A stretch of DNA of 37,085 nt from assembly GCA_903894295.1 (NCBI GenBank), contig CAITPI010000104.1, positions 1 through 37,085 of the forward strand. The letters are read 5' to 3'. The stretch comes from an uncultured Acidimicrobiaceae bacterium (lineage in GTDB: Bacteria; Actinomycetota; Acidimicrobiia; Acidimicrobiales; RAAP-2). Under the pieces are notes generated by a model, which saw only the letters and a program-made list of their open reading frames with translations, had not been told where the DNA came from and ran no database searches. This document shows, piece by piece, positions 23,979 to 27,743 of this stretch. Positions within the stretch are counted from its first letter, which is position 1, and every line of letters begins with the position of its first letter. The position numbers and the translations under genes were made by a program.

Positions 23979-24047
23979 TTCGGCCACACCATCGGCCCGG
24001 TCGGCCACTCCACTGATCTGAACTGGATCTACGGGCGAAAGACATGG

Positions 24048-24173
24048 ATGTCACGGGATCTACTTCGCTCGGCGATCTGCGACTACATCGAGGGCTTCTA
24101 CAACCCCGAGCGCATCCAGAAGCGCCACGGGTACCGTTCACCAGCCGACTTCGAATCGGCTGCCGTCGCTTAG
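24048..24173 (+). pseudogene. IS3-family transposase, C-terminal remnant
   Basis: The frame ending at TAG 24171-24173 reads RSAICDYIEGFYNPERIQKR and then HGYRSPADFESA, the hallmark C-terminus of IS3-group OrfB (DDE integrase core) transposases. In-frame sequence before the ATG (WIYGRKTW) also fits this family back to about 24019. The catalytic DDE residues, OrfA and the left end are gone. It lies directly against the 3' end of the broken HNH gene. Confidence 0.85.
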
Positions 24174-24210
24174 AAAAATGTGCACGGGAGAGTGGGTCAA
24201 CTCCAGATTT
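24174..24210 (+). repeat. Probable right end of the IS3-family element
   Basis: The sequence just after the transposase stop (AAAAATGTGCACGGGAGA, then GTGGGTCAACTCCAG) looks like an IS3-group terminal repeat. The HNH reading frame runs through it from the other strand, so the last roughly 20 codons of the HNH remnant are IS-derived. No matching left end was found in the window. Confidence 0.4.
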
Positions 24211-24559
24211 TGTCGCGGGTCCTGGAGGCCGAGCTGGTCACAGGTGAAGCTGGACTTGCCGAAGTTGCAGGTGTAGTAACTGGCCACAAGGTTTTCGTGG
24301 CTGTCGGCCAGGGCTGGATCAGAAAAGCTGGCAGCAGCCTCGACGTGATCCGCTACTCCGGACAAGACGAGCAGGGCTGCATGGCGTTGAGAGTCGAACC
24401 TTCCCCAGACCGGCGGGTCTCCGAGTAAGGCGACGAGCTGCTTGCGCGCTCTGCGGTCGATGACTCCAATCCCGCAGTAGCGACAGTGCCAGCCATCACG
24501 GGCCAGTACAGCGTCATGATCGGCTTCGCTCAACTGCTGGCGCTTGCCGACTGTCTTTG

Positions 24560-24569
24560 TTCTCGGAAT
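24560..24569. repeat. Left target-site duplication TTCTCGGAAT
   Basis: The 10-bp sequence is repeated in the same direction at 26339-26348. In the HNH reading frame it encodes Ile-Pro-Arg on both sides of the element. Confidence 0.75.
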
Positions 24570-24570
24570 A

Positions 24571-24652
24571 CTCGGCGTTTGAGTCAGATTTTGGTTGACA
24601 AAGGGTCGAGTGGGACTCCTGAGGCCTGATTTGGCCCGTCTCCTTCAGTGGT
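24571..24652 (+). repeat. Left terminal inverted repeat, two-block
   Basis: Outer block 24571-24609 (39 bp, begins CTCGGCGTTTGAGTCAG) is identical to the reverse complement of 26295-26333. After a 14-bp unlike spacer, the inner block 24624-24652 (begins GCCTGATTT) matches the reverse complement of 26252-26280 at 25 of 29 positions. Confidence 0.9.
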
Positions 24653-24799
24653 CGGTGTCAGCGCTGAATGGCGGGAGGATCAGCCCGGGGCTGCCAGTGG
24701 CGGCGAGAAGGGGATGGTCGGCTTGTGCCCAGCCCGCGCAGTCGGATGGTGGTTCGGCCGCTCGATGGTAGAGGTGGCAGCTTGAGCGGCGCAGCCCGA

Positions 24800-24840
24800 G
24801 ATGACGAGCCCGGCCCTCCTTTGGATCCGGGCTCGTCATC
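24800..24840 (-). terminator. Hairpin overlapping the Fic stop codon
   Basis: GATGACGAGCCCGG (24800-24813) pairs perfectly with CCGGGCTCGTCATC (24827-24840) around a 13-nt loop. The Fic stop (24836-24838) lies inside the stem. There is no U-run, as is common in high-GC actinobacteria. Between it and the left terminal repeat there is no gene. Confidence 0.65.
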
Positions 24841-26107
24841 GCGACTGGATGCGGCCCGGAACAGCGCGCGTCGGCCGTGCCACGGCGGTATCAGCTGCGG
24901 GCGAAGCCAGCCTCCGCTCGAACCCGGTAAGAGCATCAAGGAGTCCGGCCACCTCGAAGACGCGATTTCGTCGCCCGACGGTGCCTTGGACAAGGATGCC
25001 GCGCTCGGCCAGGTGGTTGACGGCATCATTGGTCCGCTTGCGGGAACGGTCGATGGCGACCGATGCCGTCTCGACGGTGAGGATGGGGAGGCCCGGCAAC
25101 GCCGACAGCAGCAGGTCGGTCGCCGAGTTGCGACGCACCTGTCCGGCGGCATCACGCCAGCGTCGTTCGAGCTCGGAGAGCTCCTCGGCGAAGCCCTCCG
25201 CGTCGGCACAGGCGCGCAGTAGCTCGTTCACGAAGCGATCGATCCACTGAAGTGCTGCCTCGTTGGCTGCCGTCTGGCCGGGTGGGCCGTCGTAGCGGAA
25301 GGAGACGAGACCCGCGATGTAGGCCCCGGCGTTGGTGGCCAAGATCAGGCTCACAGGAGGAACGAAGGTTGGAGTCACCCCACGACGGCGGAGGACGAGA
25401 TGGATCAGTGCTCGCCCCACCCGGCCGTTTCCGTCGATGAAGGGATGGATGGTTTCGAACTGCGCATGGGCGAGGGCGGCCTGGACGATAGCTGGGTGAT
25501 CGTCGCTCGAGAGATAGGCACACAGGTCCGCCAGGAGGCCGGGGACCTGCTCGTGGGGCGGTGGGACGTAGGCCGCCCGACAGGGGTTGGCGCCTCCGAT
25601 CCAGTTCTGCTCGGTACGCACCACACCTCCCCAGTGCTCATCGCTCGTGCCGACAAGGAGGGCACGATGCAACGCACAGAGGTCATCGACGGTGAGTGCC
25701 CGGCCGAGGTCAGCGAGCTCAAGGGCCCCGCGCATAGCGCGGATGTTCCCGAGCACAGTTCGGGCAGTGTGATCGTTGGCAGGAAGCCCGACCTGCTCAG
25801 CGAACTCCTCCTTGGCCAGACGCCGAGCGTTGACTTGAAGACCTTCGATGTAGGACGACCCGACTGCTTCGGCCCGGAGCAGCAAGCGTGCTACTGACTC
25901 GGTGCTGGCCAGACCCACTGGGCTACGCTGAAGCGCAGCGATCGCCTGGCCGGCGTCAGCGAGGTCGGCCACGAGGTCAGCGGGGAGCGTGAGGGCTCGC
26001 GACGCAACACCGTCGGGGACATAGGCACGATACGAGCAGGAGGTTCTATCCCGTCGGGTCTGCCCCGTAGGGCTACCCTGCCAGATGTGGTCTTCGAAGT
26101 GAGCCAT
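24836..26107 (-). CDS. Fic-family protein with inhibitory helix and C-terminal winged helix
   Basis: 423 residues. The Fic_N region has the self-inhibition motif SSYIEG at 84-89 (S/T-xxx-E-G/N), which places it in class II. The catalytic motif HPFIDGNGRVGR is intact at 221-232 (His221, Asp225, Asn227, Arg232). A winged-helix domain follows (about 325-395: ILTVETASVAIDRSRKRTND ... NHLAERGILVQG). Fic enzymes usually transfer AMP from ATP to a hydroxyl on a target protein; the target here is unknown. ATG 26107 has GGAGG 8 nt upstream. No separate antitoxin gene lies beside it. It is the sole cargo of the mobile element. Confidence 0.9.
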   Translation of the reverse strand: MAHFEDHIWQGSPTGQTRRDRTSCSYRAYVPDGVASRALTLPADLVADLADAGQAIAALQRSPVGLASTESVARLLLRAEAVGSSYIEGLQVNARRLAKEEFAEQVGLPANDHTARTVLGNIRAMRGALELADLGRALTVDDLCALHRALLVGTSDEHWGGVVRTEQNWIGGANPCRAAYVPPPHEQVPGLLADLCAYLSSDDHPAIVQAALAHAQFETIHPFIDGNGRVGRALIHLVLRRRGVTPTFVPPVSLILATNAGAYIAGLVSFRYDGPPGQTAANEAALQWIDRFVNELLRACADAEGFAEELSELERRWRDAAGQVRRNSATDLLLSALPGLPILTVETASVAIDRSRKRTNDAVNHLAERGILVQGTVGRRNRVFEVAGLLDALTGFERRLASPAADTAVARPTRAVPGRIQSR

Positions 26108-26129
26108 GTAATCGTCCTCCGTCAGTCAT

Positions 26130-26162
26130 CATAGTGTCGGTTAGTCAGCAAGCGACACTATG
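26130..26162. promoter_or_regulatory. Operator-like inverted repeat at the Fic promoter
   Basis: CATAGTGTCG (26130-26139) and CGACACTATG (26153-26162) are perfect 10-bp arms 13 bp apart, 22 bp before the Fic ATG. On the reverse strand TATGAT overlaps the arm nearest the gene and is a good -10. The protein's own winged helix could bind here. Confidence 0.65.
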
Positions 26163-26251
26163 GACCACTCGTGGGGGACAGTTGTTGGGGTCGATTCGGT
26201 GGTCCGGCGGCAACCACGGGCCGGTTCTCCGACCACGCAGTCCTGGAATCC

Positions 26252-26333
26252 ACCGCTGAAGGTGACAGGCTAAATCAGGCGCTTGGCGCCACGATCGACC
26301 CTTTGTCAACCAAAATCTGACTCAAACGCCGAG
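26252..26333 (-). repeat. Right terminal inverted repeat, two-block
   Basis: Mirror of the left end: outer block 26295-26333 (perfect), 14-bp spacer, inner block 26252-26280. Equal spacing on both ends suggests two transposase-binding sites per end. Confidence 0.9.
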
Positions 26334-26338
26334 CCCTA

Positions 26339-26348
26339 TTCTCGGAAT
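26339..26348. repeat. Right target-site duplication TTCTCGGAAT
   Basis: Exact match to 24560-24569. Adjoining bases differ between the two sides, which limits the duplication to about 10 bp. Confidence 0.75.
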
Positions 26349-26711
26349 GCCTCGTACCTGCTTGCTGGCCCAATACGAGCGAAGCGGACCTTCGTCCAGC
26401 GATGCGAGCTCGGCTCTGGCACCAGTCAGGTCACCGGAGACGAGGAGGTCTGTGACCCTACCGAGCACCTCGAGGGCCAGGTGTACCTCTGGTCCCGGCT
26501 CGACGAGCGACCGGCGGAGCTCACGCTCATCGCCAGATCGTGGAGTCGTCTGCGGAGTCTGTTCATCAGTCGAAGCGGTGGCGCGCTGCCCTTGCCGATC
26601 GGCCCTGGTCGGTCGGGCATCCGCGTGGTCGAAGTCCTCACCAACGCCAGCGGGTCTCGACAGCGTGGATCCGACGTCACGGACCTTCCGCTTCAAGTCG
26701 CCCGGCCCCAT
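26339..26711 (-). pseudogene. HNH endonuclease, N-terminal part
   Basis: From ATG 26711 the frame runs 121 codons to the duplicated Ile-Pro-Arg, then leaves the gene and stops in the mobile element at 26322. The stretch LEVLGRVTDLLVSGDLTGAR, then AELASLDEGPLRSYWASK, is the helical region normally found before the zinc Cys pair in this kind of HNH protein. It carries no catalytic residues, so the gene is broken. Confidence 0.75.
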
Positions 26712-26873: not shown

Positions 26874-27236
26874 TTACCCCGCCAAGTAGCGTCCGCGTCC
26901 GACCTTCACCACTTTCCCTTGCTTCAGCAGATGATCGAGCGTGGCAGTCACAGACCGGGCATCGTCGTTTCGTCTGGAGGCATGGAGGCTGGCAACTACC
27001 CCGGTGGGAGAGAGGAACTCGTCAGCCTGACGCAGCACGGCGAGGATTGCCTCCGTCCGGGCGACCCCGACGAGGTCTCCTTCGTGTCCAAGGCCGGCCC
27101 GCAGGGCTGCTAACTCTGCCTCAAGCCCACGGCAGCTGGCGAGGACCTCGGCCGCCTGAGCCCTCTTCTTCGTCAGCTCTGCCTCGACATCGGCAATCCG
27201 CTTGGTGATCGAAATGGGGCTTCCAAAGACAAACAA
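26874..27236 (-). CDS. Small coiled-coil / winged-helix protein
   Basis: About 120 residues. A helical heptad region (RIADVEAELTKKRAQAAEVL) is followed by a winged-helix-like end (RTEAILAVLRQADEFLSPTG ... LDHLLKQGKVVKVGRGRYLA). Such proteins occur near phage and integrated elements in actinobacteria. The start is uncertain: TTG 27236 is the first codon available and no clear ribosome site is seen. An AT-rich inverted repeat overlaps the start region. Confidence 0.6.
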   Translation of the reverse strand: MFVFGSPISITKRIADVEAELTKKRAQAAEVLASCRGLEAELAALRAGLGHEGDLVGVARTEAILAVLRQADEFLSPTGVVASLHASRRNDDARSVTATLDHLLKQGKVVKVGRGRYLAG

Positions 27237-27365: not shown

Positions 27366-27438
27366 GCCCACGTAGCTCAGGGGATAGAGCGTCGGTTTCC
27401 TAAACCGTGCGTCGCAGGTTCGAATCCTGCCGTGGGCA
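27366..27438 (+). tRNA. tRNA-Arg (anticodon CCT)
   Basis: 73 nt. The acceptor arms GCCCACG and CGTGGGC pair fully. The D-arm is GCTC...GAGC, the anticodon loop TTCCTAA gives anticodon CCT (reads AGG), and the T-arm is GCAGG-TTCGAAT-CCTGC. The first anticodon-stem pair is T-T. The discriminator is A, and CC of the CCA tail follows in the DNA. tRNA genes like this are common integration sites for islands. Confidence 0.95.
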
Positions 27439-27743
27439 CCTTTGTGATGTCGCGAGACATCGGAGACAGGTGTCTCACGACATCGTAGAAAATGGACTGC
27501 CGGTCACAGTTGTCGCTGGTAGTACTTCGTTGCATCCTGTGTTGCATTCTGGGTGAGGTGCCGCAGTGGCGATCCATCAAGCTCCAAGGTGTCGTTGGAC
27601 CCCGAACGCCGGGCGTTGCCTTCGACCAGCGACGGGACAGCCCGACCTTCTCGTAGTCGGTCTGCCCCGGCCGTTTCCGGGAAACTACCTCCGCCGGAGG
27701 CCAAAGGTCGTTCCGGAATTGAGTCCGTCATTATGCTTTCATC
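27439..27743. other. Non-coding region after the tRNA with IS/att-like repeats
   Basis: No gene is supported in this 305-bp stretch. 27446-27459 and 27471-27484 form a 14-bp inverted repeat with one mismatch. The same DNA can be read as two direct units of about 23 bp (GATGTCGCGAGACATCGG and GGTGTCTCACGACATCGT as cores). Such units look like transposon or attachment-site ends. A -10 box for the TetR gene lies at 27732. Confidence 0.5.
27732..27737 (+). promoter_or_regulatory. -10 box TATGCT of the double-TetR gene
   Basis: TATGCT ends 6 nt before ATG 27744, giving a leaderless start. Confidence 0.6.

Follow-up and report, generated by a model that had tools for sequence, protein, structure and literature searches.

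Organization of the Fic locus

A 37,085-nucleotide stretch of DNA from an uncultured Acidimicrobiaceae bacterium (contig CAITPI010000104.1, hereafter the window) was analysed around a gene for a Fic protein that lies between two inverted repeats. The segment interrupts a gene resembling an HNH endonuclease, and it is very probably a transposon that lacks its own transposase. The features that define it are listed below with their strands. Genomes (G), contigs (C) and loci (L) are cited by our own handles, and G000 is the assembly of the window.

24138-24566 (-): 3' part of the interrupted HNH endonuclease gene (open reading frame (ORF) list and plasmid matches; Pfam HNH E 0.063, below the cut-off)
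24559-24566: left copy of the target duplication, 8 bp by family geometry, GTTCTCGG, 7/8 match to the right copy
24567-26337: whole transposase-free element by family geometry, with 4 nt followed by YTCGGC at both ends
24571-24609 (+): left terminal inverted repeat, 39 bp, perfect, with outer box CTCGGCGTTTGAGTCAGATTTTGGTTGA
24628-24634 (+): left inner box GATTTGG at +58, proposed second transposase site
24836-26107 (-): Fic gene, 423 aa, Fic_N and Fic domains, HPFIDGNGRVGR, SSYIEG
26270-26276 (-): right inner box GATTTAG at +58, near-equal in position (+57) in the transposase-encoding loci L029 and L047
26295-26333 (-): right terminal inverted repeat, 39 bp, perfect, 39/39 against the left repeat
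26338-26345: right copy of the target duplication, ATTCTCGG, 7/8 match to the left copy
26346-26711 (-): 5' part of the interrupted gene, in the same frame after subtraction of the 1779-nt repeat spacing

The first-pass annotation had described perfect 39-bp terminal inverted repeats around a single Fic gene with an intact motif and no transposase frame, and these points were borne out. The repeats were identical at 39 of the first 40 nt and were embedded in 125-nt arms with 78% identity. The Fic ORF was the sole convincing gene between them, and in a tblastn search at 1e-3 nothing in the interior resembled the partner transposase or exonuclease described below. The promoter and terminator that had also been assigned to the element were not recovered. 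The consensus promoter scan, which did not extend to other promoter types, found 0 promoter-like sites (0.3 expected), and the sole terminator-like site (0.6 expected) was located in the right repeat.

Ends of the element in related genomes

The left end was searched by BLAST over 61 genomes and matched in 2, namely G000 and G002 of the same genus (93% match). The third copy of the end in G000 was a 28-nt exact match on contig C128. A pattern with up to 3 mismatches was found in 8 of the 172 genomes of the family, and its reversed control in none. A loose 19-nt pattern was found in 100 of 397 genomes of the order; many of these matches were due to chance because the reversed control matched too. 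Moreover, a profile of 66 positions built from 22 ends detected ends in 44/172 genomes of the family at E <= 0.05. This value is a lower bound because stricter Infernal filters were used and 30 first-look candidates were scored per genome. The ends were thus not unique to this site, which supports the mobile-element reading. An exact 22-nt search of a genome contig collection, from which the genome of the window is possibly absent, gave 0 stretches. In the plasmid blastn search, no record matched over 80% of the length of the element, and the matches in the best 20 of 49 records were confined to a stretch within the Fic gene.

The family ends were bipartite, with an outer box of about 28 nt followed by a GATTTAG-type box at +57/58. 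With at most one mismatch, this inner box was present in 16/24 ends (15 of the 16 at +57/58) versus 5.9% of shuffles; the exact box was present in 11/24 ends versus 0.3%. The inner box was common to both window ends and to L029 and L047, and the outer box of the window was the same as that of L029 at 23/28 positions. The shared inner box therefore suggests that the ends of the window and of L029/L047 are recognised by one transposase family.

A total of 32 convergent end pairs of less than 15 kb, chosen by eye, came from 26 genomes; the 22-end profile already included ends of nine pairs, and 23 were new. A 15.3-kb pair (G111:C71) and L180, whose two ends are on the same strand, were not counted. 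Excluding the three pairs with an intact transposase, the pairs spanned 194-2729 bp, except L024 (9.4 kb) and L179 (5.3 kb), which by eye contain an IS256-type and an IS1595-type transposase gene, respectively. L024 (G000:C128, 1149-10518) is a second pair of family ends in the genome of the window, where a toxin-antitoxin-like cassette is apparently broken by the IS256-type transposase gene and approximately 8 kb of metabolic genes.

Geometry of the target duplication

The exact 10-bp direct repeat TTCTCGGAAT, which had been taken as the target duplication, was present at 24560-24569 and 26339-26348. It did not abut the inverted repeats, with a gap of 1 nt on the left and 5 nt on the right. 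In the first 12 pairs, the sum of the repeat length and the two gaps to the conserved YTCGGC was 16 in 9/12, and the remaining sums were 15 in L024, 17 in L025 and 11 in L102. This sum is unaffected by chance lengthening of the repeat and therefore points to one cut geometry. In L047 and L098, the repeat was 8 bp with exactly 4 nt on either side.

A fixed geometry of 4 nt outside YTCGGC and then 8 bp was applied to all pairs. Eight anchors were moved by 1-4 nt to profile position 1 beforehand, and for L168 and L175, where two same-strand ends lay close together, one was taken. The two copies matched at 7 or 8 of 8 positions in 20/32 pairs and at least at 6 in 23/32. Among the 23 pairs outside the derivation of the rule, the corresponding numbers were 13 and 16. 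When the right copy was shifted from -12 to +12 in 31 pairs (the window was scored unshifted), at most 2 pairs reached 6/8 at any other offset. The duplicated 8-mers differed between pairs. Perfect 8-bp copies at this geometry were found in the transposase-encoding L029, L047 and L098, and not in L178 (1/8) or L102. Because the geometry is common to the relatives, the window most likely has an 8-bp duplication, and the element then spans 24567-26337. The exact 10 bp is best taken as these 8 bp with one altered position plus three matches by chance. Hence, the duplication proposed by the first-pass annotation was retained as a repeat and revised in its extent.

Partner transposase and adjoining exonuclease

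Full elements with the same kind of ends were found in three of the 32 pairs, each enclosing type III-like restriction genes together with an intact transposase gene and a DEDDh exonuclease gene. Three further pairs retained a scrap of the transposase, namely its N-terminal part in L159, its first 30 residues in L161 and a C-terminal piece in L167. The remaining 26 pairs, the window included, had no transposase or exonuclease similarity (tblastn E 1e-3). Because three pairs still hold transposase scrap, the cassettes are likely to be derivatives of the transposon with cargo in the place of the transposase.

The DEDDh exonuclease frame adjoined the transposase in 13/13 long relatives checked; L107 and L114 were uninformative, as these loci stop directly after the transposase. 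In L054 (7716-10913, -), the two were fused in one frame of 1065 aa, and at other loci the frames abut or overlap. By eye, the transposase has N-terminal cysteine-rich ribbons. Its predicted structure was consistent with the IS256-type RNase-H catalytic fold and was closest to ISCth4 in a second look with VIA-align; the structure alignment (A2) covered 20 of 29 loci. A sequence search of the PDB gave a best E of 0.02 to an unrelated entry, which was rejected. The L029 transposase passed no Pfam cut-off (one match lay below it), and the transposase had no match in NCBIfam, PADLOC or PHROGs and matched neither plasmids nor phages at E <= 1e-3. PF00872 did not match L029, L101 or L093; L104, L105 and L110 passed its cut-off, and L108 failed it. 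Compact insertion sequences of 1.36-1.44 kb (L104, L105, L108, L110, L111, L113 and L117) were mostly from Solirubrobacterales and Thermoleophilaceae metagenome-assembled genomes; their transposase is a distant relative, and their terminal repeats are different.

Cargo of the cassettes

Fic was the cargo of the window by profile. RhuM-Fic was found in L026 by profile and in L168 and L175 by likeness, AbiEi/AbiEii in L167 by profile (beside the transposase piece), and HipA in L176 by profile. A helix-turn-helix (HTH) protein with a DUF6036 nucleotidyltransferase was found in L163 and L165 by profile and in L179 by likeness, and other nucleotidyltransferases in L169 and L177 by profile. An ATPase matching the candidate defence family PDC-S27 was carried by L173 and, by likeness and beside a transposase scrap, by L161. 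L025 carried an antitoxin-like gene whose partner belongs to no known family, as did L031 by likeness and the interrupted L024. Type III-like restriction genes were found in L029, L047 (methylase named by eye) and L178 (by likeness). Likeness refers to proteins that had been scanned (L158, L161, L168, L175, L178 and L179) or, for L024 and L031, to L025.

Other cargo was not obviously defensive: an AadA_C nucleotidyltransferase (L028), a DUF2268 Zn protease (L162), NHL repeats (L166), AAA ATPases (L157, L158), HTH proteins (L164, L172), a secreted-looking protein (L174) and small ORFs (L120, L160). In L170, the longest ORF was a TnpB (OrfB_IS605) gene between family ends with a perfect 8-bp duplication (493-1959). 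L171 (377-570) was a 194-bp pair of family ends resembling a miniature inverted-repeat transposable element, with no ORF of at least 70 aa and a duplication of 5/8. Compact cassettes with the same cargo occurred in different genomes, namely RhuM-Fic in G108, G137 and G188 and a small ORF in G101 and G113.

PADLOC had no match at E <= 1e-6 for the L163 and L165 nucleotidyltransferases, the L177 partner ORF or the L157 ATPase. In a small control, 25 window genes contained three PADLOC families at the same threshold, with one member each. The enrichment of defence genes among the cargo is suggestive, since the analyst selected which cargo went into the PADLOC scan.

Fic protein and its second site

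The Fic protein matched PF02661 with E 3.1e-23 (82.9 bits, cut-off 24) and PF13784 with E 5.1e-9, both above the cut-offs. Its catalytic motif HPFIDGNGRVGR was intact and fits HxFx[D/E]GNGRxxR, the motif of the Fic/DOC family. Class II (self-inhibited) Fic proteins have an N-terminal [S/T]xxxE[G/N] motif, and the sequence SSYIEG, located before the Fic domain, is presumably this self-inhibition motif. The SoFic profile of PADLOC matched residues 25-393 with E 1.2e-68, whereas the SoFic equivalog of NCBIfam scored 45.2 against a cut-off of 550 bits. The protein thus resembles class II Fic and SoFic in its profile match, its Fic_N and Fic domains and its catalytic and inhibitory motifs, and differs from SoFic in missing the equivalog cut-off. 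It is a relative of SoFic rather than that protein itself and is probably a self-inhibited AMP-transferase. Two inverted repeats border the gene:

24797-24843 (-): hairpin at the Fic stop codon from the inverted-repeat scan, 17 nt, 94%, given no score as a terminator by the terminator scan
26130-26162: inverted repeat before the Fic start, conserved in G007, possible operator

The Fic enzyme may regulate itself through its C-terminal region and the upstream inverted repeat.

Fic relatives at E <= 1e-60 were found in 37/172 family genomes, including that of the window. The 40 Fic matches were 36-53% identical, apart from the window and G007 of the same genus, whose Fic protein was 87% identical. 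The DNA of G007 matched window positions 24809-26281 at 83%, and this homologous stretch held no transposase. At this different site, the family end TTCGGCGTTTGGTGGA lay on the promoter side of Fic with the inner box at +57. Among the 40 matches compared by eye, the window and G007 alone had an end within about 250 bp, and the next was G109 at 2.3 kb. The search for further Fic-only copies was thus answered in part, by one Fic gene next to a single family end at another site. The notion of a Fic cassette is widened accordingly: Fic would move with such ends, but as one of many cargoes, and most of its relatives do not lie beside them.

Interrupted gene and surroundings

The two parts of the interrupted gene had been described as rejoining in frame. 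The frames agreed, as the ORF coordinates minus the 1779-nt spacing gave a shift of 0 (the halves were not joined). The 3' part matched annotated plasmid HNH endonucleases of Novosphingobium (34% over 103 residues, E 6e-9, plasmid search) and Rhodococcus ruber (32% over 120, E 2e-3). These proteins extend upstream beyond the aligned part by about 80 and 65 residues, respectively, which fits an HNH gene that once ran across the insertion. The match of the 5' part to the Rhodococcus ruber protein was weak (E 0.014, two-sequence comparison), and it had no match in phages. Short matches of the 3' half in one viral contig and in two further genomes of the family were not accepted as uninserted sites.

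A C-terminal remnant similar to an IS3-type transposase was noticed by eye at 24000-24172 (+), directly left of the truncated 3' end of the HNH gene, and the island therefore seems to hold nested insertions. A tRNA-Arg (cct) at 27366-27440 and a small AbiEi-antitoxin-like ORF at 26874-27236 (PF13338 E 0.027, below the cut-off) lie near the insertion and possibly mark the edge of a genomic island.

Proposed mechanism and alternative explanations

The segment is best explained, with a probability of roughly 0.86, as a non-autonomous transposon built like a mobile insertion cassette (MIC), moved in trans and belonging to an apparently undescribed Mutator/IS256-like clade. Two transposon-like ends, each with an outer and an inner box, lie on either side of one Fic gene, and the segment interrupts the HNH-like gene, with the target duplication on the flanks. 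A transposase of the family present in G122, G159 and G147 would bind the window ends in trans and join them to staggered cuts 8 bp apart, leaving the 8-bp duplication. The partner would be a divergent Mutator/IS256-like RNase-H transposase with an adjoining DEDDh exonuclease, which may take part in the reaction.

Several results weigh against this explanation. Movement is inferred, and none was observed. The empty site is likewise inferred, because an uninserted copy of exactly this HNH gene was not found in the family genomes, phages or plasmids. In G007, the other end is missing. The window matched at 7/8 at the family geometry, and its perfect 10-bp repeat lies 1 and 5 nt off it. Moreover, 9/32 pairs were without a duplication at the fixed geometry (0-5 of 8: L159, L168, L169, L171, L175, L177, L178, L025 and L024; the right anchor of L169 looks misplaced), and 8/24 ends were without the inner box at up to one mismatch (two L055 ends were anchored one base off). 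Five of the 28 outer-box positions differ between the window and L029; hence, the cognate transposase of the window ends may be a sister of those seen. No transposase relative was detected in G000 (95% complete), so the moving enzyme would have been in an earlier host, arrived transiently or been missed by the assembly. Foldseek alone gave no PDB match for the transposase at E <= 0.001.

An autonomous element could instead have lost its transposase here by internal deletion after insertion and never have moved as a Fic-only cassette. L159 resembles such a deletion product, and L167 holds a transposase piece beside its cargo. However, the window element has no trace of transposase or exonuclease, the same Fic lies beside a family end at another site in G007 with no transposase in the homologous stretch, and compact cassettes with the same cargo (RhuM-Fic, small ORF) recur across genomes. 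This course of events is considered unlikely. The ends could also be targets of a site-specific recombinase, since integron cassettes and pdif modules are similar in content to single-module toxin-antitoxin cassettes. The 8-bp duplication at fixed geometry in 20/32 pairs is, however, the footprint of a transposase, the ends are inverted, with a transposase gene between them in three pairs, and the duplicated 8-mers vary, which makes this explanation very improbable. A chance position of an ordinary Fic gene between two REP-like or terminator-like repeats is scarcely credible: although the right repeat contains a terminator-like match and most family Fic relatives lie away from such ends, the idea is refuted in the main by inverted pairs of ends that enclose unrelated cargo, by the duplications at fixed geometry and by the occurrence of the same ends on transposase-encoding elements.

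Comparison with known systems

The anatomy of a non-autonomous transposon can be compared with MIC231 of Bacillus cereus and mic-qnrD. MIC231 depends on IS231, an IS4-family element. MIC elements are described as having inverted repeats, a passenger gene in place of the transposase and a target duplication, and MIC231A1 as mobilised in trans by the IS231A transposase (PMC3913671, PMC3129680). The window element shares all three features with the elements so described. Its ends are common to transposase-encoding elements, and by analogy it would be mobilised in trans. It differs from MIC231 in that its ends match a Mutator/IS256-like transposase and that many cassettes carry many cargoes, often of the toxin or defence type.

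Prokaryotic Mutator-like transposases (IS256, ISH6, ISLre2/TnGBS, ISAzba1/ISMich2/ISKra4 and the integrative and conjugative elements of Mycoplasma) have 8- or 9-bp duplications and inverted repeats of 18-39 bp (PMC3942029). The family resembles those described there in duplication size, repeat length and a predicted fold nearest ISCth4. The word exonuclease is absent from the main text of PMC3942029. The partner differs from them in its DEDDh exonuclease frame, cysteine-rich ribbons (by eye) and bipartite ends, and in that the L029 protein is below every Pfam cut-off and without an NCBIfam match. Mutator/IS256 repeats have a terminal cytosine. At the putative ends set by the geometry, the outermost base of the elements was mostly A (by eye).

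Tn7-like transposons use other transposition machinery. They carry anti-phage and toxin-antitoxin genes (PMC8649781) and are alike in bringing defence or toxin cargo onto transposons, whereas most cassettes examined here have no transposase. The literature search found no account of this transposon clade or of the Fic cassette, and the novelty is provisional because the search did not cover ISfinder.

Implications

A wider role can be suggested tentatively, as a possibility rather than an expectation. The family could be a trans-acting shuttle of toxin and defence modules in Acidimicrobiia-type actinobacteria, in which a two-gene core of Mutator/IS256-like transposase and DEDDh exonuclease travels with type III-like restriction and also moves one-module transposase-free cassettes (Fic, RhuM-Fic, HipA, AbiE and nucleotidyltransferase pairs). 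Such a shuttle would parallel integron cassettes but rely on a DDE transposase, and the exonuclease would be active in transposition. The transposase of this pair has no profile above the cut-off in the four libraries searched, and the contribution of a DEDDh exonuclease to a Mutator-type transposase is a question that the pair raises. Furthermore, if the proposed explanation is true, the rule of two end boxes with the 8-bp duplication geometry would find modules by their ends and not by their genes. It would also show in concrete terms how self-inhibited Fic enzymes, and other toxin or defence modules travelling singly, spread inside a chromosome and from one to another.
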